Shown: one piece after another, positions 1 through 9,198 of the stretch | Numbering within the stretch: position 1 is the stretch's first letter | Layout: each line of letters opens with the position of its first letter | DNA from: a virus | Direction: 5' to 3' (one strand) | Length of the DNA: 49,745 nucleotides | IMG/VR virus record: IMGVR_UViG_3300032223_000802 | Location: 1 to 49,745 of that record | Position numbers and translations under genes: made by a program | The notes under the pieces: generated by a model | The model's database searches: none | Seen by the model: only the letters and a program-made list of their open reading frames with translations | What the model was told of the DNA's origin: nothing

Positions 1-90
1 CAGATTTTCGTCACGATTGCAATGTGCGAACGTGCGACGAATAACAGTCGAAACTACGCTCGCGTGTTGACTGGAAACCAGAGCTTTCAT
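1..90 (-). CDS. Small unknown protein, cut by the window edge
   Basis: An open frame of 30 codons runs off the left edge. It begins MKALVSSQ and no function is recognisable. A second ATG lies directly upstream (position 93). The ATG at 90 is preferred because the AGGA ribosome site at 97-100 is then 6 nt away, against 3 nt for the other. A strong promoter (125-153) drives it, and a copy of the conserved repeat (206-340) lies upstream of that promoter, so it appears to be the first gene of a third module of the minigene cluster. The protein itself is unclassified; gene reality rests on the promoter, ribosome site and open frame. Confidence 0.6.
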   Translation of the reverse strand, partial: MKALVSSQHASVVSTVIRRTFAHCNRDENL

Positions 91-124
91 CATTTATCCT
101 TTGGTTGAGTTGACTGATGTACAT

Positions 125-153
125 ATTATATCGGCAGTCTATCGGGAAATCAA
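125..153 (-). promoter_or_regulatory. Sigma70-type promoter
   Basis: Read on the - strand: TTGATT (148-153), a 17 nt spacer, then a perfect TATAAT (125-130). The bases just before the -10 are CCGA, shared with other promoters of this cluster. It drives the partial gene at the left edge. Confidence 0.8.
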
Positions 154-205
154 TAGTAGAAGCCACGAAAACCCCATAATTATTTTATTATTTTTCTTTT
201 GCAAT

Positions 206-340
206 TGGCATGGTATTAGCCTTCAAATTGACGTAACTCTATAGCCTGTATAGACTTATGATGAAAGTTGCGGCGATTTTTTGCCATAACTCTATATGCC
301 ATAAGGGTTTATGTCGATTCGCCACAGCAAAAAGCGTGCC
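206..340. repeat. Conserved intergenic repeat, copy 1
   Basis: Shared blocks, in order: TGGCATGG (206-213), GTATAGACTTA (248-258), CTATATGCCATAAG (292-305) and AGCGTGCC near the end. The same blocks occur in the same order at 1456-1596, and the first two again at 2442. Within this copy the unit starting TAACTCTATA occurs twice in tandem (from about 234 and about 287). It sits about 53 bp upstream of the - strand promoter at 125-153, the position of an activator or repressor site; the function is inferred only. It and the neighbouring terminator fill the gene-free stretch 91-408. Confidence 0.7.
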
Positions 341-369
341 ACAAAAATAAAAAAAATAAATAAAAAAAT

Positions 370-391
370 CGGGAAGTTTTTACGCTTCCCG
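370..391 (-). terminator. Rho-independent terminator
   Basis: On the - strand, CGGGAAG and CTTCCCG form a 7 bp stem with an 8 nt loop, followed by a run of seven T (plus-strand A run at 362-368). It lies 18 nt past the stop of the 57-residue gene and ends the second minigene module. Confidence 0.85.
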
Positions 392-408
392 ACTTGACAA
401 TCCGCACG

Positions 409-582
409 TTATACGTCGGCGTCTTCCACAACTGCGAATGGCGTGCAGACTTCAATGATTGCCACAACTGCACCAACCCGCAAACTACGTTGAGCCATTT
501 CCCGCAAATCGCGGTCGATGCGTGCATTGTTTTCAACGTCATCTGCGATTGCAATCCACTTGTTAACTTCTACTTGCGTCAT
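409..582 (-). CDS. Small unknown protein (57 aa), minigene cluster
   Basis: A 57-codon frame starting MTQVEVNKW, mostly charged at the start and ending in an acidic tail (VVEDADV). The start at 582 is fixed by AGGA at 591-594, 8 nt upstream. It is the last gene of the second module: promoter at 622-650 in front, terminator at 370-391 behind. A longer overlapping frame in this stretch has no ribosome site and is a shadow. No family is recognised; as a short, strongly promoted phage gene it may be an early host-takeover protein, which is inference from context only. Confidence 0.65.
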   Translation of the reverse strand: MTQVEVNKWIAIADDVENNARIDRDLREMAQRSLRVGAVVAIIEVCTPFAVVEDADV

Positions 583-621
583 TGTCGTTGTCCTGAGTGA
601 GTGAGTGAGTGAGACATTGGC

Positions 622-650
622 ATAGTATACAGGTGGGTCAACATAGTCAA
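622..650 (-). promoter_or_regulatory. Sigma70-type promoter
   Basis: On the - strand TTGACT (645-650), 17 nt, TACTAT (622-627). An alternative -10, TATACT, overlaps it with 15 nt spacing. It precedes the 57-residue gene. Confidence 0.65.
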
Positions 651-668
651 CCCACTTGATTCTAGATT

Positions 669-848
669 CTAGAAGAATTTTTTTGTATTCGCTCGTGTTC
701 GATAATCGGCAGCAAGGCGTTCGATATAGCTACGGTCTTTGCTCGTATGAACTTTGTTGCCATCGACTACACCATTCACCAATACTCGCAAAACATGATA
801 CTGGGCATCCGTACCTGCGAGACGGGTTGTGATTTCTACTGTCGTCAT
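669..848 (-). CDS. Small unknown protein (59 aa), paralogue of 2149-2328
   Basis: A 59-codon frame starting MTTVEITTRLAGTDA and ending KKFF. Its twin at 2149-2328 has the same length and is nearly the same sequence: TTRLAGTDA, YHVLRVLVNGV, DGNKVHTSKDRSYIERLAADYR and KKFF are shared, with only about eight differences. Start codon 848 has AGGA at 857-860 with 8 nt spacing. Its own promoter is at 885-912. The strong conservation of protein sequence despite many third-position changes in the DNA shows that it is a real, selected gene. The function is unknown; no signal peptide, membrane segment or metal site is visible. Confidence 0.8.
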   Translation of the reverse strand: MTTVEITTRLAGTDAQYHVLRVLVNGVVDGNKVHTSKDRSYIERLAADYRTRANTKKFF

Positions 849-884
849 TTTCTTAATCCTAAGTGAGTGAACCAGATACGATAC

Positions 885-912
885 ATTTTAGCGATTGCTC
901 GCCGATAGTCAA
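885..912 (-). promoter_or_regulatory. Sigma70-type promoter
   Basis: On the - strand TTGACT (907-912), 16 nt, TAAAAT (885-890). It lies in the 66 bp between two minigenes and drives the 59-residue gene at 669-848. Confidence 0.65.
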
Positions 913-914
913 CC

Positions 915-1130
915 CTATTGGGCCGAAACATTCAGAATTTTCGAGAAAATAATCGTGCGGAAAGCTTGTCGCTTTTCGTGTGATTTCTTCAGAACGTCGA
1001 ATTGTCCATCGACCTTGACCAAAACGCGGTCAGAACCAACGTTTTCCACCGTACCGACAACCGTCTTGACGGTATCGTCTGAACCAGTGTATTCGATTGC
1101 GACCGCAGCACCAACATTCAGATTCGTCAT
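915..1130 (-). CDS. Small unknown protein (71 aa), related to 1863-2081
   Basis: A 71-residue protein starting MTNLNVGAAVAIEY. It shares a pattern with the protein at 1863-2081: V-x-EY near the start, then VK, GT, R-x-LVK-x-D and SKI at matching spacing. This is consistent with a small beta-barrel-like fold, though the fold is a guess. Promoter at 1170-1198. The leader between promoter and start (ACACAAACGAAAG) is also shared with the relative. No enzyme motif is visible. Confidence 0.7.
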   Translation of the reverse strand: MTNLNVGAAVAIEYTGSDDTVKTVVGTVENVGSDRVLVKVDGQFDVLKKSHEKRQAFRTIIFSKILNVSAQ

Positions 1131-1169
1131 TTTCTTGCTTTCGTTTGTGTTTCGTTGTCTGATGGAATC

Positions 1170-1198
1170 AGTATACAGATAGTATCGGCGTTTGTCAA
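1170..1198 (-). promoter_or_regulatory. Sigma70-type promoter
   Basis: On the - strand a perfect TTGACA (1193-1198), 17 nt, TATACT (1170-1175). It begins 2 bp past the stop codon of the preceding 49-residue gene. Confidence 0.8.
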
Positions 1199-1199
1199 C

Positions 1200-1349
1200 T
1201 CAGAACGTGAAGTAAACAAACATTTTTTTACCAAAATTCGTGAATTCGTGTACTCGGCATCCACCATAAGCGGCTACGTATGCGAACCAGTATCCACAGC
1301 ATACCGTTTTCCCGTTCGCGAGTTCCACAAAGTACAGTGAGCAAGACAT
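1200..1349 (-). CDS. Small unknown protein (49 aa)
   Basis: A 49-codon frame starting MSCSLYFVELANGKTVCC, rich in aromatic residues and with four cysteines. The start at 1349 is set by AGGA at 1357-1360, 7 nt away. It is the first gene of the second minigene module, directly behind the promoter at 1384-1412 and the second repeat copy. The stop is at 1200-1202 and the next promoter follows immediately. It has no recognisable family. Confidence 0.65.
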   Translation of the reverse strand: MSCSLYFVELANGKTVCCGYWFAYVAAYGGCRVHEFTNFGKKMFVYFTF

Positions 1350-1383
1350 CGTTTATTCCTTAGTTCGTGTTTCCTATGTACAT

Positions 1384-1412
1384 AGTATATCGGCATTCCA
1401 TACGTGTGTCAA
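1384..1412 (-). promoter_or_regulatory. Strong sigma70-type promoter
   Basis: On the - strand TTGACA (1407-1412), 17 nt ending in GCCGA, then TATACT (1384-1389). It lies 44 bp from the repeat copy at 1456. Confidence 0.85.
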
Positions 1413-1455
1413 CAGTACATTCCACGAATATGGCAAAATAAATAATAATTGTGTA

Positions 1456-1596
1456 TGGCATGGTATGTGCTATACGTGTGTAGCCATAAGTCGTTATGCT
1501 GTATAGACTTACGACGAAACGCACCCGCGACCCTGTCGCTGTAACCCTATATGCCATAAGCACTTACGTCACATAGGATACAGCATACAGCGTGCC
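1456..1596. repeat. Conserved intergenic repeat, copy 2
   Basis: Blocks TGGCATGG (1456-1463), GTATAGACTTA (1501-1511), CTATATGCCATAAG (1547-1560) and AGCGTGCC (1589-1596) match copy 1 in order and approximate spacing. TAAGTC and GACTTA form an inverted pair around the first core. It ends 2 bp short of the stop of the 32-residue gene, so it sits exactly between two modules. Confidence 0.75.
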
Positions 1597-1598
1597 AA

Positions 1599-1697
1599 TC
1601 ACCACCAAATTTGTCCATTCGGACCTTTATCCGAGAATATAATTACAATGGTAATGACCACAATGGCCACAACAGATACACAAACAATCGTTCCCAT
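1599..1697 (-). CDS. 32-residue single-span membrane peptide
   Basis: A 33-codon frame (stop included) starting MGTIVCVSVVAIVVIT: about 20 consecutive hydrophobic residues, then a short polar tail (SDKGPNGQ) ending WW. AGG lies 9 nt before the ATG, inside the end of the upstream gene (stop 1704-1706). The layout, a single membrane span with a short tail, resembles many small phage membrane peptides. Its role is unknown. At this length chance cannot be fully excluded, but position, ribosome site and composition all agree. Confidence 0.5.
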   Translation of the reverse strand: MGTIVCVSVVAIVVITIVIIFSDKGPNGQIWW

Positions 1698-1703
1698 CAA
1701 CGC

Positions 1704-1859
1704 TTACCTATTCTTGAGGCGTACCATGATTGCCTTAACTTCAGGCATATTCATGATTTGATTGAAATAAGCCCAACAGAACGCATCCCACAACCTACGC
1801 GACACAACACCAGCACAGAACAGTTGATACATATGCTGGTGCATTTGTTGCGTAATCAT
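1704..1859 (-). CDS. Small unknown protein (51 aa)
   Basis: A 51-codon frame starting MITQQMHQHMYQLF with seven methionines, amphipathic and basic at its end (MVRLKNR). The start at 1859 has GGGGTGA directly upstream; this ribosome site overlaps the stop of the gene at 1863-2081, suggesting translational coupling. Third gene of the first module. Function unknown. Confidence 0.6.
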   Translation of the reverse strand: MITQQMHQHMYQLFCAGVVSRRLWDAFCWAYFNQIMNMPEVKAIMVRLKNR

Positions 1860-1862
1860 ACG

Positions 1863-2081
1863 TCACCCCACAATCAGACTTGTAATCTTGGACACCAACA
1901 ATCGACGGAATTCAGGCTTGACGGTCAGCGGTTCTTCATCCAGCTTGACCAGAATCGACCGTTCATCGAAGTCATCAATCGTTCCATCATATCGCTTGAC
2001 TTCAGCCGTTGGGTTTTTCTTGTATTCCACTCGCACCACTTGGTTGAATCGCAGTCCCTTGGTCGTAATCATCGCAGTCAT
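1863..2081 (-). CDS. Small unknown protein (72 aa), related to 915-1130
   Basis: A 72-residue protein starting MTAMITTKG. The start could also be the second ATG at 2072, since the GAAAG ahead is very close to the first. Frames reaching further upstream cross a promoter and a neighbouring gene and are not credible. It shares V-x-EY, VK, GT-x-D/E, R-x-LVK-x-D and SKI with the 71-residue protein at 915-1130, and the DNA just upstream of both starts is alike. Promoter at 2113-2141. Function unknown. Confidence 0.65.
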   Translation of the reverse strand: MTAMITTKGLRFNQVVRVEYKKNPTAEVKRYDGTIDDFDERSILVKLDEEPLTVKPEFRRLLVSKITSLIVG

Positions 2082-2112
2082 CTTTCGTTTGTGTTTGTTG
2101 TTTGATGTACTA

Positions 2113-2141
2113 ATAGTATCGACATTCGGTCGGGTTGTCAA
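2113..2141 (-). promoter_or_regulatory. Sigma70-type promoter
   Basis: On the - strand TTGACA (2136-2141), 17 nt ending GTCGA, TACTAT (2113-2118). It drives the gene at 1863-2081. Confidence 0.75.
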
Positions 2142-2148
2142 CACCCAA

Positions 2149-2328
2149 TTAGAAGAATTTTTTGACATTCGCACGAGAGCGATAGTCGGCAGCGAGTCGC
2201 TCAATATAACTTCTGTCCTTACTTGTATGTACCTTGTTACCATCAAGGACACCATTAACAAGGACGCGGAGAACATGGTATTCAGCATCGGTGCCAGCGA
2301 GACGGGTTGTGATTTGAACTTCTGTCAT
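2149..2328 (-). CDS. Small unknown protein (59 aa), paralogue of 669-848
   Basis: A 59-residue protein starting MTEVQITTRLAGTDA and ending NVKKFF, almost identical in protein sequence to the gene at 669-848. The DNA differs at many synonymous sites (for example different codons for RVLVNG), so the duplication is not recent and both copies are under selection. It is the first gene of the first module, behind the promoter at 2370-2398. Start region AGAAAG precedes the ATG by about 7 nt. No functional motif is recognised. Confidence 0.8.
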   Translation of the reverse strand: MTEVQITTRLAGTDAEYHVLRVLVNGVLDGNKVHTSKDRSYIERLAADYRSRANVKKFF

Positions 2329-2369
2329 TTTGTATCTTTCTTTCTGAGTTCGTTGTTTGTTATGCTACC

Positions 2370-2398
2370 ATTATATCGACATTCAAGACGCATGTCCA
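2370..2398 (-). promoter_or_regulatory. Sigma70-type promoter
   Basis: On the - strand TGGACA (2393-2398), 17 nt ending GTCGA, perfect TATAAT (2370-2375). The third repeat copy lies 44 bp upstream. Confidence 0.75.
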
Positions 2399-2441
2399 TA
2401 GTAGAAGCACAAGAAAAAAGAAAAAATAAAAAGATTTTGTT

Positions 2442-2510
2442 TGGCATGGCATTTGCATAGATGTGTCACCGTAAGTACTTACTATATATAGACTTACGTC
2501 AAAACGCCCG
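2442..2510. repeat. Conserved intergenic repeat, copy 3 (short)
   Basis: TGGCATGG (2442-2449) and ATAGACTTAC match the other copies; the second half seen in copies 1 and 2 is missing. It also holds a perfect 12 bp palindrome, GTAAGTACTTAC (2471-2482), paired with GACTTAC 14 bp on. TGGCATGGCATTTGCA (2442-2457) fits the sigma54 consensus closely but points rightward. The rest of the gene-free stretch 2329-2649 holds the promoter at 2370 and a G-rich tract at 2533-2560. Confidence 0.65.
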
Positions 2511-2649
2511 CAGATGGGATGGTTATAATTTAGGTAGGGGTGGGGGACTAGGCAGGTGGGTGTATTATTAGATTTGCTTAAGGTTCCCCATCCGGGTACT
2601 CAGTTTGCGGGGGTGGTATAAAAAACATGGCCAACTTCTACCATTTATG

Positions 2650-2886
2650 TCACACCTCATCATTCCTGATTGCCCCGCTCGCATCAACACCGATATCATG
2701 TTGGAATTCTTCCTCGTGGTCATAGCAAAAGCAACTACCCATAATAGTATTTAGTTCGCATCGACTGCACTTGTTTGCTGTTCTTGTTCGGCTACGCACG
2801 TCACATACAATACATAAGAATTTATCAAATAAACCTAATGTATCACTCTGAATCTTGCCGCACTTCTTGCATACTGAAAAAGACAT
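2650..2886 (-). CDS. Small zinc-ribbon protein (78 aa)
   Basis: A 78-residue protein with paired cysteines C6/C9, C25/C28 and C40/C43, then C52, C54 and H57, so it could bind two zinc ions. The ATG at 2886 is chosen because AGGAG (2893-2897) lies 6 nt before it; a TTG two codons earlier would be too close. It is the last gene of the leftward MoxR/VWA operon. Zinc ribbons of this type usually hold DNA, RNA or protein partners, and no catalytic residues are visible. Precise role unknown. Confidence 0.75.
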   Translation of the reverse strand: MSFSVCKKCGKIQSDTLGLFDKFLCIVCDVRSRTRTANKCSRCELNTIMGSCFCYDHEEEFQHDIGVDASGAIRNDEV

Positions 2887-2906
2887 CGGCAACTCCTAAT
2901 CTGTTG

Positions 2907-3080
2907 TCATTCTAAGTGCCCCATATCGTACATATCAGCTTGTCCTTTACACCTGACACATTCCTGTTCATCTGGCTCTATATTACGTTGGCATACAAGA
3001 CACCAACGATACACCTTCGGCGGCTCACGTTTTGTAAACGGATTTACATTTGGTGGCTCTGTTATCGTTATTTCCGTCAT
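2907..3080 (-). CDS. Small zinc-ribbon protein (57 aa)
   Basis: A 57-residue protein starting MTEITITEPPNVNPF with a single zinc ribbon (C27/C30 and C41/C44) after a proline-rich head. Its ATG overlaps the stop of the upstream 34-residue gene in an ATGA arrangement (3077-3080), which supports both genes and indicates coupled translation. The next gene's ribosome site follows its stop by 9 nt. Role unknown; part of the MoxR/VWA operon. Confidence 0.75.
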   Translation of the reverse strand: MTEITITEPPNVNPFTKREPPKVYRWCLVCQRNIEPDEQECVRCKGQADMYDMGHLE

Positions 3081-3181
3081 TCAATGAACCCGATATCAAA
3101 TAAAAAGTCCTCTTCAATACATACTGGACATGTGGCAGCAGCAAATATTTCATGTCTAGCACAGATTCCGGGCAACCACAT
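3077..3181 (-). CDS. 34-residue zinc-finger-like peptide
   Basis: Begins MWLPGICARHEIF; C7, H10, C18 and C21 make a compact CCHC-type zinc site, followed by an acidic tail. The ATG at 3181 lies 15 nt after the stop of the previous zinc-ribbon gene, and its own stop overlaps the next start (ATGA). A longer frame reaching 3325 would overlap the upstream zinc-ribbon gene by over 100 nt and is not accepted. The ribosome site (GAAAAGA) is weak, so expression probably depends on translation of the gene before it. Confidence 0.6.
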   Translation of the reverse strand: MWLPGICARHEIFAAATCPVCIEEDFLFDIGFIE

Positions 3182-3197
3182 TCTTTTCGTGACAAAA

Positions 3198-3416
3198 TTA
3201 ATCTTTACTGGTGTTTTCTTTGGTATGCTTACCGGCGTCTTCGAGAACCTTAGAGCATCTATTAACATCGACCCAGTCGTCGATTGTTCCAAGGTCGTAT
3301 CGTTCGGCTGTGATTCGTTCTTCATCTTCTTTATTCCTACATGTTTGGCAGATGGATTCCCACTTAAATATATTATGTCCGCATATCAGACATGGGTGTA
3401 TGTACTGGCTAGACAA
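3198..3416 (-). CDS. Small zinc-ribbon protein (72 aa), TTG start
   Basis: Zinc ribbon with C9/C12 and C23/C26, then the motif YDLGT (40-44) and a lone cysteine followed by KVL (C54). The same YDLGT-x(7-9)-C-x2-VL block occurs in the neighbouring protein at 3409-3639, so the two are relatives. No ATG is available near the start; the TTG at 3416 with GGTGG just before it, overlapping the upstream stop, is the best start. Function unknown. Confidence 0.65.
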   Translation of the reverse strand: MSSQYIHPCLICGHNIFKWESICQTCRNKEDEERITAERYDLGTIDDWVDVNRCSKVLEDAGKHTKENTSKD

Positions 3417-3639
3417 TATTCCACCGCACTTTCAGTACATCACCACACTTGGTGCATTTCATGGTGTTATGCGTAAAGCCCGATGCGATACCAACCAAGA
3501 CATGCTTACACTGATATGCTTCGTATGTTCCAAGGTCATAGTCCATATGTAAAAAACAGTCGGCACACAACCCCGTTTGGATTTGTATACCGACTGAATC
3601 TCGCCCGCACCTAGTACAACGCATGTTTTTCTTTGCCAT
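3409..3639 (-). CDS. Small zinc-ribbon protein (76 aa)
   Basis: Cysteine pairs C8/C11, C25/C28 and C62/C65, plus C44, give up to two zinc sites in 76 residues. It carries the YDLGT block (34-38) shared with the next gene. The ATG at 3639 overlaps the last base of the VWA-protein stop (TAATG), so it is translated with that gene. Coupling to a MoxR/VWA pair suggests it is an accessory or substrate-recognition factor of that machine; this is inference. Confidence 0.75.
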   Translation of the reverse strand: MAKKNMRCTRCGRDSVGIQIQTGLCADCFLHMDYDLGTYEAYQCKHVLVGIASGFTHNTMKCTKCGDVLKVRWNIV

Positions 3640-4850
3640 TACTGTTTGACGTTACCAGAAAACTGGTTAAATTCATAGAAGTTACAAGTTGGAGGAAAAT
3701 TATGCTTATAGTCCATCGTCAAGAAGATGTGCCACCTATCAGGATATTTAGGATTCACATCAGACCCACATCCGTCGGTAAGTACGAATACCGCACTTGG
3801 ATACTGTCGTTGTGTAAGACAATATTCTTCTAACTGATGAAATGACGTTCCGCCACCCATAGGTAGAGTATCCGCCGATATATCAATTGGAATAATATCA
3901 GTGTCGAAAGCAAACGGAGTAATATCGAATTTGTCTGAAGGAATAGTCTTAGCTGCCGCGAAGAATACCTGCGAGTCACCGTGGCAACTTCCACTTACGT
4001 CCATAAAGAACGTCATATCAATACGTTCAGTCGGTTTCTCATCAATAGGACCAACACTAGGAATAACTACCTTGGGCATCGCCCTTTGGATAGTTGTGAA
4101 CCTACGGTCAAGTACTTTCCACTGAGTCTTTCTCTTTTCGCGGAATTTCTTAATGGTCCAATTCCTAATAACATCTTCCCACTTACGCTTAGGTTTTGGT
4201 TTTAGTGTAGCCTTAACCCACTCGAAGCTAGAACCATCGCCAGCCTTAAGGTTTTCAGCAAGTACCTTGTTCTCACCATCTGACATCTTCTCGATAAGCT
4301 CTTTGATTTCTTCAGGTAGGTCATCTGGCATCATACTATGGTCATCAAGAGGACCAACGCCATTGGCAATGGTAATAGTGATGATTTCCGCATCTTCCAT
4401 TATCTTCTGGTAGTAGTACTCAAACTCGCGGTCGGCCTCTACACCCTTTCTCTTATCTCCCTTAAATACCGTGTCCATGAGACACATTTTCTTCAGGAGG
4501 TCAGGAGAAGGCGTAAATCCGAACGAGTCGATAAGCATTTCATTGATAGTAATGTCTGCGGCGATATTACCAATCTGCGGATATAGACCTTTAAGTCTCC
4601 TACCGTGATTAAGAATAACATGTAGACACTCGTGAGCTACAATGAAACACGTATCATTCATATCCAGCTTCTCTAGGAATTCAGGATTAAACATGAACTG
4701 TACGCAGGCACCAGCCTTATTGAAGGCAACTGCTGCTGTGTCAATCTTATCGGTCATGACCGGCCTACCCAACTGCCACATCATAGAGAAAATACTATGG
4801 TGGCAATTGAGTTGGTTGGAAATTTCAAGAAAGCTGTCATCTGCGTCCAT
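3639..4850 (-). CDS. VWA protein with metallopeptidase-like N-terminal domain (DUF2201-like)
   Basis: 403 residues. The N-terminal half has the zinc peptidase motif HECLH (73-77) followed by a helix with an N-H-G-R pattern, as in the DUF2201_N family. The C-terminal third is a von Willebrand A domain: MIDAS residues DVSGS (284-288), the threonine in GGGTS (about 335), and TDG (358-360). DUF2201-type proteins are typical partners of MoxR AAA+ ATPases, which remodel or load substrates bound through the metal site. The start at 4850 is preferred over a TTG at 4877; it lies 2 nt after the stop of the ATPase gene, with AAAGG about 10 nt before. Whether the HExxH site cleaves protein here is not known. 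Confidence 0.85.
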   Translation of the reverse strand: MDADDSFLEISNQLNCHHSIFSMMWQLGRPVMTDKIDTAAVAFNKAGACVQFMFNPEFLEKLDMNDTCFIVAHECLHVILNHGRRLKGLYPQIGNIAADITINEMLIDSFGFTPSPDLLKKMCLMDTVFKGDKRKGVEADREFEYYYQKIMEDAEIITITIANGVGPLDDHSMMPDDLPEEIKELIEKMSDGENKVLAENLKAGDGSSFEWVKATLKPKPKRKWEDVIRNWTIKKFREKRKTQWKVLDRRFTTIQRAMPKVVIPSVGPIDEKPTERIDMTFFMDVSGSCHGDSQVFFAAAKTIPSDKFDITPFAFDTDIIPIDISADTLPMGGGTSFHQLEEYCLTQRQYPSAVFVLTDGCGSDVNPKYPDRWHIFLTMDYKHNFPPTCNFYEFNQFSGNVKQ

Positions 4851-4852
4851 TA

Positions 4853-6310
4853 TTACGAACCTTTCTTTGGGGTCCAAAGGTGCTGTTCCAACTCGGACTT
4901 AATCAACTTATTGATTTCGACCTTGTTGTACTCAATATTAAAGTCTTCGTTCAGTGTTTTTAGTGCGTGATTTAGAGGACCAAGAAGTTCTTTCTTGTAC
5001 CTTTGAATCGTGTCGATATGCGAGTGGCGGATTAGACCACATACAATCTTCTTCACATGCTGTGCGTCCTTAGCGGACAAGTTATGTGGAGTATCCTGTA
5101 GTTTTGCAATCAACTCCGCACGTAGAGTAGTCCCGTTACTTTTCGAGTCGAATGCTTTCCATGCGTCAGACGAAACCGTATTAGCTAGGAATGTAGTATA
5201 CGCATCGTTAGCGTTCTTGATAGCCTTAAACTCGATTGGGTCAGTTCCAACCTTAGTTGACTTCAACGAAGGTAGATTATCATAGATTGCAGCTTGGATA
5301 GCCTTATCTTTCGATGTCTTAAGGAAAGTCTGAATCGTATCACCAATCTTCTTGTTCGTGTGGAACTGGTCAAGAATTGACTTGAAGATAGGCTTAGAAT
5401 CCTTATTCTCCGTAAGAACCTTGATAATCTTTTCATGTGGAATTAGGCTTAGGATTGTACTACGGTACTTATCAGCATCCTTGTTCTTCAAGACCCAATC
5501 TTCCACTTCGGCGTAAACGTTGTCGTTTTTTAGCATACGCTCAACTTCAGCCAAGTTGCCCGCGTCGATTAGACGAACAATTTTTTCTCTTGCCAATCCA
5601 TCTGACAAAAGCTTAATAAGCTTAGTCACGTTGGTCTTGGAGTTAAGAACGTCGTGCAAGTCACCGCCTAGAGACTGAATCTCTAGTGCGTAGTCCAACC
5701 TACGTGGCGAAACCAATTTCTGTAGGTCTTTAGGAATAGTATTCCACCATTCGATTGCAGCTTTAGCCTTTTCTTCACCGTACTTGTCGTAGAAGAATTT
5801 CTTATCTGGCTTGAAGTCGATAGAAGTATGGATGTGGAACCTATCCTTCTGAGCAGGGTCCAATCGTTCAACGTCGTATGTACGAGCGTCATCTTCAGGG
5901 TTAACTGCTGCCCAAATGAAGCGTAGGTTATTGAACTTCTTACCGTTGATACTCTTGAACTGAATAATTTCCATAACAGCGTTACGGACTTTTTCAGGGG
6001 CACGGTTAAGTTCGTCCATGAAGATTGCTTCTACGGTATCCGTAGCGAAAGCAAGAGGACGTAGCAAATCTAGGTAAGTTACCTTTTGCATAACGCCTTC
6101 GCTGTCTGCAATGTCCTCGGTTCGTTCGCGAGGAACACCAATAAGGTCAACGAATGGGTCCATAGTACCAGCGGAGAAGTATAGGTACTTCAAACCGTGT
6201 CTTTTGAATCCACTCTCAACAATTGCTGTCTTACCGACACCATAGTCGCCAGTAACGAGTACGTTTAGGTTGTTCTCAATCCAAAAATCCAACTTTTTAT
6301 CCGAAATCAT
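4853..6310 (-). CDS. MoxR-type AAA+ ATPase
   Basis: 485 residues. Walker A GDYGVGKTA (21-29), Walker B AIFMDEL (95-101), and a sensor-like stretch ending AAVNPEDD fit the AAA_5/MoxR group. The C-terminal 200 residues are helical and unlike known domains. MoxR ATPases act with VWA proteins to mature or assemble other complexes; here the VWA partner is the next gene. The ATG at 6310 has AAAGGGGA about 5 nt upstream and is preferred over a TTG nine codons earlier. It is the first gene of a leftward operon of seven genes, driven by the promoter at 6341-6368. Confidence 0.9.
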   Translation of the reverse strand: MISDKKLDFWIENNLNVLVTGDYGVGKTAIVESGFKRHGLKYLYFSAGTMDPFVDLIGVPRERTEDIADSEGVMQKVTYLDLLRPLAFATDTVEAIFMDELNRAPEKVRNAVMEIIQFKSINGKKFNNLRFIWAAVNPEDDARTYDVERLDPAQKDRFHIHTSIDFKPDKKFFYDKYGEEKAKAAIEWWNTIPKDLQKLVSPRRLDYALEIQSLGGDLHDVLNSKTNVTKLIKLLSDGLAREKIVRLIDAGNLAEVERMLKNDNVYAEVEDWVLKNKDADKYRSTILSLIPHEKIIKVLTENKDSKPIFKSILDQFHTNKKIGDTIQTFLKTSKDKAIQAAIYDNLPSLKSTKVGTDPIEFKAIKNANDAYTTFLANTVSSDAWKAFDSKSNGTTLRAELIAKLQDTPHNLSAKDAQHVKKIVCGLIRHSHIDTIQRYKKELLGPLNHALKTLNEDFNIEYNKVEINKLIKSELEQHLWTPKKGS

Positions 6311-6340
6311 CAGATTCCCCTTTAACTTTGTGTTCAATGA

Positions 6341-6368
6341 AGTGTACTACATACTGTAGGTGTGTCAA
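6341..6368 (-). promoter_or_regulatory. Sigma70-type promoter of the MoxR/VWA operon
   Basis: On the - strand TTGACA (6363-6368), 16 nt, TACACT (6341-6346). It is the only good promoter seen ahead of the seven-gene operon, whose genes follow with overlaps or short gaps. Confidence 0.6.
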
Positions 6369-6412
6369 CGTGACGGCACCCATTCTACCAGACTTTTTTC
6401 GGGAAGTCAAGC

Positions 6413-6610
6413 ATGAAATCAGAGATTTTGGTTCGCGCAACGGCTGAATTGGCGCAACAGGTTGCCAATGAAGACCTTACAGCAAAAAATTTAGATATGG
6501 AGAAAATCATCAATGAAACTGCCACCAACAGTAACAGAGGAACAGTTCATGGAAGCGTTCCAGCGGGTAGTGGAGAGGCTAAAAAGGAAGTACCGCTACA
6601 AAATCTATGA
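6413..6610 (+). CDS. Doubtful small ORF ahead of the sigma-like gene
   Basis: 65 codons starting MKSEILVRATAELAQQ. The first half reads like an amphipathic helix, but the second half overlaps the sigma-like gene by 98 nt in another frame and looks like a shadow. GGGAAG lies 7 nt before the ATG. It is the first possible start after the divergent promoter region, so it may be a leader peptide whose translation opens the next ribosome site. Reported as uncertain. Confidence 0.35.
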   Translation: MKSEILVRATAELAQQVANEDLTAKNLDMEKIINETATNSNRGTVHGSVPAGSGEAKKEVPLQNL

Positions 6611-6995
6611 TGGTGATGATTTAGCTCAAGAGGCATTATTCATAGCCATAGATGATAATCCTAAACGTCTTGGTGCCATTTGGAAGTATGATACATCTAA
6701 AGGTCCATTATATAATTTCCTATCAGTAGCTATAGGAAATAGGATTAAGAACTTTATTCGAGATAAGAGATATAAGGAAATAGATGCGGTTAGCATCTTC
6801 AATGTAGAGGAAGAGACAATCAAGGTTGGTAACATGAAAACGTCATATGACGAATTCTGGAAGATTATTGATGAAAACCTCGGTGCTGAGTTCCGAAGTG
6901 ACTACTTGAAAATGAGACAGGGAATTACCATTACTAAGATTCGCAAAACAAAATTAATGGACGAACTTAGGAGAATAGTCAATGAGTTCCTATAA
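6513..6995 (+). CDS. Sigma-factor region 2-like protein (candidate late transcription factor)
   Basis: 160 residues. Residues about 30-90 match the sigma70 region 2 pattern: DDLAQEALFIAID, then KYDTSKGPLYNFLSVAIGN and RIKNFIRDKR, the helices that bind the RNA polymerase clamp and the -10 element. The C-terminal 60 residues show no clear region 4, as in short phage sigma factors such as T4 gp55, which reads promoters with only a -10 box. It is the first firm gene of the rightward block, and the downstream late-type promoters lack -35 boxes, which fits that role. GGAG lies 10 nt before the ATG. Promoter specificity is inferred. Confidence 0.65.
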   Translation: MKLPPTVTEEQFMEAFQRVVERLKRKYRYKIYDGDDLAQEALFIAIDDNPKRLGAIWKYDTSKGPLYNFLSVAIGNRIKNFIRDKRYKEIDAVSIFNVEEETIKVGNMKTSYDEFWKIIDENLGAEFRSDYLKMRQGITITKIRKTKLMDELRRIVNEFL

Positions 6996-7800
6996 GACCG
7001 GACGTTGGTCCGAAGAAGAAGTTAAATTAGTTAAGCAGCTTACAGAAGAAGGTCTTTCTTATGAGGCTATGGAGTCTCGGCTAAATAGACCCGCTAATAC
7101 CATTCAAAAGATGGTTGAGCAGAAGCTTATGATGAACCTAACGGAAGATGCACAGCTAGTCCGTCAGGCCGAAAACGATATTAAAAATAGCGCTGAGTGG
7201 AGAGAACTATCCCGGCAGCTATCAGAAGATGAACAAGAGATGTTCCTTCACCACTGGCGCGAACTTATCGCTCAGTTTAAGAATGATGTTACGCATACGG
7301 AACGTTTGCAGATTATGGATGTTATTCGTAACGAAATTCTATTAGGTAGGGTTCTATACCGCATCAACATATCAAATCAAGACATTCAAGACTACCGTGA
7401 TGAATATATGAAAGAACGTAAACTGGCGATTGAGCTTCAAGACCCAAATAAGCTAGTAGACCTTCAAAGAAAGATTGCCGACTGTCAAATAGCTATCGGC
7501 GCTTTTAATAGAGAGTACAAAGACCTTTCCGAAAGAAAAAATGCTACCCTAAAGGACATTAAGGGTACTCGTGAACAGAGAATTAAGAGAATCGAAGAAA
7601 GTAAGGAAACTATCACTGGTTGGATAACCGCATTAATGGCGGCTCCAGAACTAAGAGAGAAGTTAGGTAAGTGGACGGAAAAGTTTCGTTTGGCACAAGA
7701 AGTTGAGTATCATAGACTATCAGAGTATCATACATATGATGACGGTCAACTTGAACAGCCAATACTAAACGCAGACAATATAAAGGAAGATAATCTATGA
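6982..7800 (+). CDS. Myb/SANT-like DNA-binding protein, possible small terminase
   Basis: 272 residues. The N-terminus (about 6-48) fits a Myb/SANT or helix-turn-helix fold: GRWSEEEVKLVKQL, a turn, then a recognition-like helix containing RPANTIQKMV. The remainder is highly charged, helical and probably coiled-coil (about 130-230). Small terminase subunits have this architecture, and the large subunit lies three kilobases downstream, so a packaging role is plausible but unproven; a regulator is the alternative. The start overlaps the previous gene by 14 nt, with AGGAG in front. Confidence 0.55.
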   Translation: MSSYKTGRWSEEEVKLVKQLTEEGLSYEAMESRLNRPANTIQKMVEQKLMMNLTEDAQLVRQAENDIKNSAEWRELSRQLSEDEQEMFLHHWRELIAQFKNDVTHTERLQIMDVIRNEILLGRVLYRINISNQDIQDYRDEYMKERKLAIELQDPNKLVDLQRKIADCQIAIGAFNREYKDLSERKNATLKDIKGTREQRIKRIEESKETITGWITALMAAPELREKLGKWTEKFRLAQEVEYHRLSEYHTYDDGQLEQPILNADNIKEDNL

Positions 7801-7957
7801 AAACTTGTTGTAAATGTAAAAACATAAAAGATTCATCAGAGTTTTATAAACGTTCTGGTAGAAAATGTGGTTTAATGAGCAAGCTAAATGTTTTCATTAT
7901 TCTAATTTACAGCCGTTGTGGTCAGAGGATAATTTAAGGAAGGGAGATTCTACATGA
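7797..7957 (+). pseudogene. Decayed HNH homing-type endonuclease
   Basis: The frame from 7797 (46 codons, to 7937) begins MKTCCKCKNIKDSSEFYKRS, the zinc-finger start of a common phage HNH endonuclease family. From 7865 a different frame carries the family's usual C-terminus: KCFHYSNLQPLWSEDNLRKGD, ending at 7957. The roughly 100 codons in between, including the catalytic core, are gone and the two halves are joined out of frame. The first ATG still has AGGAAG in front and overlaps the upstream stop (ATGA), so a short peptide may still be made. It is a relic of a mobile endonuclease gene that once sat between two structural-cluster genes. Confidence 0.8.
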
Positions 7958-9198
7958 GTCAAAAAACAGCATTGGTTACAGGTTGTCTTGGTCAAGACGC
8001 ATCATATCTAGCAGAACTACTAATAGAAAAGGACTATAAGGTAATCGGTGTCCGACGCCGAAGCTCTAATCCTAACTATGAAAACGTAGCTGCTATTACT
8101 GGTCATCCAAACTTTACGGTCGTGACCGGCGATATTACTGACTACCATTGTGTTAGTACGTTGGTATTGGAGCATAAGCCAGATGAAATATACAACCTAG
8201 CAGCACAATCATTCGTTAAGGACAGTTTCACTCAGCCCGCACACACATTCGAGTCGAATACTATAGGAGTACTTAACTTCCTAGAAGTATTACGCAAGGA
8301 AAATGTAGACGCGTCTTTCTATCAAGCAAGTACGAGTGAGATGTTCGGCAAGAACTACGACGAACATACATATACAGAAATCAATCCAGACCATCCCGAC
8401 AACAAACTTACGCCACTCGATAAGTATAAGCCGGGAGAAAAGTATCACGTTCGTAAAAGTAATGGTAACTTTGCGGATATGATTCACTTATCATCAGATG
8501 GAATTAACTTTGCTGCTCAACCATTCTGGTACAAGACAGAGAAGTATCAAGACGAGAATACAGCTTTCTGTCCACAGTCCCCGTATGGAATCGCTAAACT
8601 CGCCGCACACCATTTAGTTCGTCTTTATCGTGAAGCGTATGGTATCAAGGCAGCTTGTGGAATTCTCTTCAACCACGAGTCACCAAGACGCGGTAAGGAA
8701 TTCGTTACTAGGAAGATTACTGATTATGTTGGAAAACTTGGGAAGTTTCTTGCAGATAACGAATCAATAATAACCGGCGATGACTATAGTAAAAAACTTA
8801 GGTTAGTTCGTACACATAAAAACTATCCTAAACTGGCTTTAGGAAACCTAGATGCTGTACGTGATTGGGGTCATGCTAAGGATTACGTGCGGGCACAGTG
8901 GATGATACTAGACCAGAAGAAGTTCCAAGACTTCGTAATCTGCACTGGTGAATCACACACCGTTAGAGAATTCCTAGAGATAGCGTTCAGTCACATAGGA
9001 TTAGACTACAAGGATTACGTCGTAGTAGACCCAAAATTCTACAGACCAGCCGAAGTAGACTATCTTAGGGGTGACTCGTCGAAAGCCCGTAGAGTATTAG
9101 GATGGACTCCATCTATTTCTTTTGCCGAACTTGTTAAGGACATGGTAGAATCAGATATTAGGAGATACGCCGATGATAGTTCAGAAACCGTGGGGTGA
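7954..9198 (+). CDS. gmd: GDP-mannose 4,6-dehydratase-like enzyme
   Basis: 414 residues. The family converts GDP-mannose to GDP-4-keto-6-deoxymannose, a precursor of GDP-fucose, rhamnose and perosamine. Visible are the NAD(P) loop TGCLGQDASY (9-18), RRRSS (34-38), NLAAQSFV (81-88), the STSE block (126-129), the catalytic Y211/K215 in SPYGIAK, NHESPRRG, and the GNLDAVRDWGHAKDYV signature. Between STSEMFG and the catalytic tyrosine there are about 70 more residues than usual (134-205). GGGAG precedes the ATG by 7 nt. With the following cupin it probably makes an activated sugar for virion, DNA or host-surface modification. Confidence 0.9.
   Translation: MSQKTALVTGCLGQDASYLAELLIEKDYKVIGVRRRSSNPNYENVAAITGHPNFTVVTGDITDYHCVSTLVLEHKPDEIYNLAAQSFVKDSFTQPAHTFESNTIGVLNFLEVLRKENVDASFYQASTSEMFGKNYDEHTYTEINPDHPDNKLTPLDKYKPGEKYHVRKSNGNFADMIHLSSDGINFAAQPFWYKTEKYQDENTAFCPQSPYGIAKLAAHHLVRLYREAYGIKAACGILFNHESPRRGKEFVTRKITDYVGKLGKFLADNESIITGDDYSKKLRLVRTHKNYPKLALGNLDAVRDWGHAKDYVRAQWMILDQKKFQDFVICTGESHTVREFLEIAFSHIGLDYKDYVVVDPKFYRPAEVDYLRGDSSKARRVLGWTPSISFAELVKDMVESDIRRYADDSSETVG

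Follow-up and report, generated by a model that had tools for sequence, protein, structure and literature searches.

A MoxR/VWA gene pair of the N4 gp24/gp25 family followed by an array of putative zinc-ribbon paralogs in an environmental phage

The window analyzed here is a 49,745-base IMG/VR virus record (IMGVR_UViG_3300032223_000802) from an environmental phage. It contains seven minus-strand open reading frames (ORFs) in a row, a MoxR gene (6310-4853), a gene for a VWA protein (4850-3639) and five cysteine-rich ORFs, Z1 to Z5 (3639-2650), with adjoining genes overlapping or separated by no more than 20 nt (Table 1). A preliminary description of this DNA, made from its letters, had proposed one operon with overlaps, and this layout was borne out; the gene spacing and the promoter matches suggest a single transcript. 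The MoxR/VWA pair is not new, as it belongs to the phage family named after N4 gp24/gp25 (PHROGs 1297 and 1314). The zinc array attached to the operon of this pair is the unusual feature, and it was found beside the pair in no other phage examined.

Table 1 Features of the operon and its surroundings (positions in the window)
Feature	Position	Strand	Remarks
MoxR-family AAA+ ATPase (predicted), 485 aa	4853-6310	-	ATG at 6310, GGGGA upstream; alternative TTG at 6337
DUF2201-type protein, 403 aa; N-terminal HExxH metallopeptidase-like domain and C-terminal VWA domain (predicted)	3639-4850	-	N4 gp25/PHROG 1314 family
Z1 zinc-ribbon protein (putative), 76 aa	3409-3639	-	Start overlaps VWA stop (TAATG); motif YDLGTYE
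Z2 zinc-ribbon protein (putative), 72 aa	3198-3416	-	TTG start, GGTGG upstream; motif YDLGTID
Z3 Cys-rich protein (putative), 82 aa (ATG 3325) or 34 aa (ATG 3181)	3077-3325	-	Motif FDIGFIE, C-terminus
Z4 zinc-ribbon protein (putative), 57 aa	2907-3080	-	Start overlaps Z3 stop (ATGA); motif YDMGHLE, C-terminus
Z5 double zinc-ribbon-like protein (putative), 78 aa	2650-2886	-	AGGAG upstream; motif HDIGVDA
Sigma70-like promoter 5' of the MoxR gene (predicted)	6341-6368	-	TTGACA-16-TACACT; consensus match only
Second candidate promoter (predicted)	6410-6382	-	TTGACT-17-TAGAAT; consensus match only
Small sigma-factor-like protein (Sigma70_r2), divergent neighbor of the operon	6513-6995	+	Late-sigma family match, 5e-19
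Tape-measure-like protein, 2364 aa	24163-31257	+	PhageMin_Tail, 1.5e-26

The predicted ATPase contains Walker A (GDYGVGKT) and Walker B (IFMDE) motifs and matched PHROG 1297 (9e-18), the Pfam family AAA_3 (2e-5, under the Pfam gathering cut-off) and, among PDB sequences, the putative ATPase 2r44. At the Walker and arginine positions, residues G26, K27, D99, E100, N137, R157 and R203 were invariant in the aligned phage homologues. An AlphaFold model (pLDDT 90) found its best fold matches in the MoxR structures of NorQ and CbbQ (CbbQ2), and a helical C-terminal extension is common to the protein and its huge-phage relatives. With its Walker motifs, arginine residues and modeled MoxR-type fold, the protein is predicted to be a MoxR AAA+ ATPase.

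The neighboring protein matched the Pfam family DUF2201_N (1e-14) and PHROG 1314 (2e-35). It contains the sequence HECLH at residues 73-77 and a complete MIDAS (D284xS286xS288, T335, D359), and all of these motif residues (H73, E74, H77, D284, S286, S288, T335 and D359) were invariant across 50 aligned phage homologues, as were H82 and D99. The invariance of HExxH makes peptidase action possible, and for this metallopeptidase-like domain both proteolysis and zinc binding are predicted. The AlphaFold model had two confident domains and a loose middle (pTM 0.50), so that its weak whole-chain PDB matches indicate merely a VWA/integrin-I-like domain; NorD VWA chains were among the weaker of them, and fold matches in BFVD included Bacillus phage PBS1, cyanophage S-TIM5 and several podoviruses. 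A profile of the VWA protein gave chance matches only against PDB sequences. Both the MoxR ATPase and the HExxH/VWA, DUF2201-like protein named in the preliminary description were thus confirmed by motifs, family matches, alignments and AlphaFold models.

NorQ/NorD and CoxD/CoxE aid the insertion of metal centers into enzymes, and by analogy the pair might be a metal-loading chaperone and the zinc proteins its metal carriers, as NorQ is the best match of the MoxR model and NorD also appears among the matches of the VWA protein. However, these matches reflect the general MoxR/VWA fold, the operon is without a metalloenzyme gene, and the zinc set is not conserved, which leaves this idea very remote.

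The PHROG 1314 family is labeled "HNH endonuclease", and RefSeq entries of N4-like phages carry the same name, while other records of the family are named "metallopeptidase" or "N4 gp25-like". The labels "HNH endonuclease" and "homing endonuclease" are attached to gp25-family proteins in many phage records, for example NC_023581, NC_049371 and OZ196215. Members from the window, LR756511, PA5oct-type and N4-like phages have conserved HExxH and MIDAS residues and no conserved HNH motif. The endonuclease label therefore looks wrong, and judged by these residues it is probably a propagated misannotation.

A tblastn search of an annotated phage collection found one close relative of the pair, the 595-kb uncultured phage LR756511 (36% and 38% identity). 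Profiles built from the window and LR756511 recovered 5 and 80 loci from IMG/VR, the 80 coming from the MoxR search, and clustering of relatives at 90% VWA identity left 59 non-redundant loci, mostly from large metagenomic phages; gene calls in these relatives were mechanical, and neighbor counts depend on contig ends. Scans of IMG/VR with single proteins (MoxR, VWA, the concatenated zinc proteins and the neighbor at 6982) returned no relatives, a genome scan with the VWA alignment gave no match, and a terminase search of IMG/VR found two relatives on contigs too short to reach the operon. MoxR adjoined VWA in 48 of the 59 loci (39 on the same strand, nine on the opposite strand). It lay at least two genes away in five and was not recognized by the MoxR profile in six, at least two of which (L005 and L007) have an annotated ATPase beside VWA. 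Since loci were collected through either protein, the best estimate of how often the two occur together comes from the search with MoxR alone: of its 80 contigs, 73 also had VWA, and of the remaining seven, six stop within 1.8 kb after the MoxR match.

As an HExxH-VWA protein with a complete MIDAS beside a MoxR ATPase, the pair has the composition of N4 gp24/gp25 (Schitoviridae) and shares their HExxH and MIDAS residues. It differs in its low identity to them (~20-25%), in the longer helical C-terminal part of its MoxR protein and in the zinc-ribbon array, which was found in none of the N4-like loci read. The available sections of a jumbo-phage survey describe the same domain fusion and pairing in group 2.2 phages, as a chaperone-cochaperone pair of MoxR and peptidase-VWA proteins for which virion assembly and processing are proposed, and these sections do not mention a zinc-ribbon array (PMC7824862). 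The MoxR/VWA part of a set that the preliminary description did not recognize is thus a published phage family. Its closest relatives are in a huge-phage clade around LR756511 and IMG/VR relatives (loci L001 and L009-L093; ~30-43% identity over both proteins), where many members also have a late-sigma-like gene near the pair. They differ from the window in that the pair in many of them lies among baseplate-hub, tube and sheath genes and in that VWA is not followed by a zinc set. Among cellular systems, NorQ/NorD, CbbQ/CbbO and RavA/ViaA likewise combine a MoxR ring with a VWA cofactor, NorQ and CbbQ being closest in MoxR fold; to our knowledge these act on cellular clients and have no DUF2201-type HExxH fusion. 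Compared by description only, the archaeal virus ATV has a similar viral MoxR ATPase and VWA partner acting in tail development, which, according to the available part of the survey, is without a peptidase domain (PMC7824862).

The preliminary description had joined the pair and the zinc-ribbon proteins into one machine, which fails because the zinc set is absent beside the pair in all 59 relatives, the outcome that this description had itself named as refuting. A small same-strand ORF with two CxxC motifs was found within six genes after VWA in none of the 57 relatives with at least three downstream genes, and a count of ORFs with at least four cysteines and a CxxC over the 1.1 kb after VWA gives four in the window and no more than one in any relative. 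A different zinc-ribbon family (4826-5134, minus strand, in locus L055) occurs in 21 of the 59 loci on the opposite strand, divergent to a baseplate-hub gene.

The zinc proteins themselves had been described as five different proteins. Five cysteine-rich ORFs do exist, but they look related, as all contain a [YFH]D[LIM]G block 5-13 residues after the nearest Cys/His pair before it. A de novo search recovered this block in all five, and none of 200 shuffles equaled it at widths 4, 5, 6 or 8, its score being ~7 to 10 standard deviations above the shuffle mean. The shuffles keep composition and cysteine matches could not raise the score, so cysteine richness does not explain the block. A six-frame scan of the window for a Cys pair followed by [YFH]D[LIM]G returned exactly the five Z ORFs, but this pattern was chosen after viewing them, which leaves the de novo search as the fair test. 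The combination was found in none of 948 small ORFs of relatives, and Z1 and Z2 are identical at 17 of 20 nt in the motif region. From their common Cys module and motif, Z1-Z5 appear to be diverged paralogs confined to this lineage, forming one family that shares sequence beyond its cysteines; convergence on a short motif is the alternative. At least two CxxC-type pairs are present in four of the five. Z3, which has just one CxxH and one CxxC and, if started at ATG 3325, overlaps Z2 across its first 128 nt, is the least certain gene. Codon-usage scores did not separate Z1-Z5 from non-coding frames, a comparison confounded by their Cys-rich composition.

The array is known from one genome fragment. 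Searches of phages, IMG/VR and bacterial genomes returned no homologues of the Z proteins, at a sensitivity that easily misses short divergent proteins; tblastn against phages yielded no useful match for Z1, Z3, Z4 or Z5, and a genome scan with Z1 found nothing. A Z2 tblastn match to terminases (E ~0.4) was judged to be chance, as was the only site that matched a degenerate DNA version of the Z1-type motif, which fell outside any such ORF.

Two explanations of the array were weighed. The zinc proteins may be independent small early proteins, such as binders of host RNA polymerase, ribosomes or nucleic acids, that were duplicated at the end of an early or middle operon and are unrelated to MoxR/VWA. 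Their genes are not conserved beside the pair, and the adjoining left arm is a run of small genes on the minus strand, in which sigma70-like promoters recur and at least one further gene is duplicated. Small CxxC proteins are also common in phages, and have been remarked on for haloviruses (PMC7911831). The tight overlap with the VWA gene speaks against independence, as it implies coupled translation and perhaps matched dosage. Alternatively, Z1-Z5 could serve the pair as ligands or as client adaptors that can replace one another, with the motif and its invariant Asp docking at the VWA MIDAS metal and each ribbon holding a different target. MIDAS domains, as in integrin and midasin, bind acidic side chains of ligands, and the MIDAS of the VWA protein is invariant. 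The Z1 start overlaps the VWA stop in what is apparently one transcript, and the motif is common to all five and elsewhere in the window never stands next to a Cys pair. However, the binding is purely conjectural, the array comes from one genome only, and the absence of zinc proteins beside the pair in relatives means that the pair works without them. We favor independent passengers, to which we give an even chance, over adaptors, which appear quite improbable. In its fullest form, with [YFH]D[LIM]G as a constant docking segment (possibly a MIDAS ligand) and variable zinc modules bringing different clients to one machine, the adaptor idea is more doubtful still. The passenger explanation bears on the zinc proteins alone and does not conflict with the reading of the pair that follows.

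We consider it probable that the pair is a phage chaperone module of the gp24/gp25 form. Among possible clients a virion protein is the likeliest, most probably one from the tail or baseplate. By analogy with NorQ/NorD, CbbQ/CbbO and RavA/ViaA, a hexameric MoxR ring would likely use ATP to remodel the client. The VWA partner would capture this client through its MIDAS metal site, and the fused HExxH domain may cut or hold it. The five zinc-ribbon genes would close the transcript as an array of diverged paralogs specific to this lineage, accessories or passengers rather than core parts.

Neighboring genes in relatives point to the tail. A T4_baseplate/baseplate-hub gene (PHROG 150; PF12322, 4e-15 and 2e-19) lies near the pair in 24 of the 59 loci, a median of four genes away and on the same strand in 23; in LR756511 it is the gene at 6249-7355 of locus L001 (PF12322, 4e-15; PHROG 150, 1e-17). 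Within the fetched stretches, tail-tube genes were present in 23 of 59 loci and sheath genes in 13, and in L055 a sheath gene, two tube genes and a late-sigma-like gene all lie within 8 kb upstream. In the N4-like roseophage RPP1, the gp24/gp25 homologues lie near genes whose products were detected in virions by mass spectrometry, in a module that the authors link to tail proteins (PMC4193335), and in ATV the MoxR protein p618 binds the VWA protein p892, with a role assigned in tail development (PMC4124505). Together these observations favor tail or virion assembly, for which the evidence is one of gene neighborhood, and a virion-assembly chaperone is our best reading of the pair. The preliminary guess of a virion maturation machine thus holds for the pair, for which it was already published, but not for a joint set with the zinc ribbons. 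A 246-aa protein (L055, 7182-7922, plus strand, and relatives) is encoded upstream of MoxR in 25 of 59 loci, a median of two genes from VWA; it had no Pfam or PHROG match and is a candidate client or partner.

Several points weigh against a role in assembly. In the window the structural genes run the other way from the operon, which also has matches to host-like sigma70 promoters, and both features point to early or middle expression rather than to late. Baseplate linkage is seen in ~40% of loci and may reflect the gene order of one clade, and no relative of the baseplate-hub, sheath or tube families of huge phages was found in the 50-kb window. We know of no client for any phage member of the gp24/gp25 family, and the motif is the sole basis for predicting peptidase activity. 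In N4, gp24 and gp25 are middle genes (PMC4193335).

The strand and the early-type promoter matches would also suit a host-takeover or anti-defense chaperone rather than a virion-assembly factor, as the preliminary description had suggested, and in bacteria MoxR-VWA pairs are the core components of conflict systems (PMC7159879). However, the other members of this operon are five proteins of 57-82 aa, unlike a MoxR-vWA ternary conflict system; no operon protein had a PADLOC match, and no VMAP, iSTAND or FtsH third component was recognized beside the pair. Baseplate and tail neighbors are also kept in relatives. The suggestion thus found no support and is unlikely for the pair, though it may yet apply to the zinc proteins.

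Around the operon, positions 1-8000 contain 31 promoter-like sites compared with 19.0 (standard deviation 3.8) in shuffles. Sigma70-like promoters of the TTGACA-17-TATACT type with related flanks precede small left-arm genes at 125-153, 1170-1198, 1384-1412 and 2370-2398 (minus strand). A 59-aa gene is duplicated within this left-end array of small minus-strand genes (670-851 and 2150-2331, minus strand; DNA 76% identical over 182 nt). The late-sigma family of the divergent neighbor is also found near the pair in huge-phage relatives. Further right, the plus-strand segment 7954-9511 contains a GDP-mannose 4,6-dehydratase-like gene, whose TIGR01472 match (4e-103) is below cut-off and broken near residues 155-195, and a cupin resembling mannose-6-phosphate isomerase; these sugar genes directly precede HNH, ERCC4-type nuclease and terminase genes. 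The length of the tape-measure-like protein implies a very long tail, making the window phage long-tailed.

The array would provide a small, clear case of paralog expansion around one constant motif. The pair, read as a virion-assembly chaperone, extends a published proposal, in which large phages would in many cases encode a MoxR/VWA chaperone of their own for virion building, and the broad neighborhood evidence points at the tail baseplate, which makes the question of its client testable in an N4-like laboratory phage.

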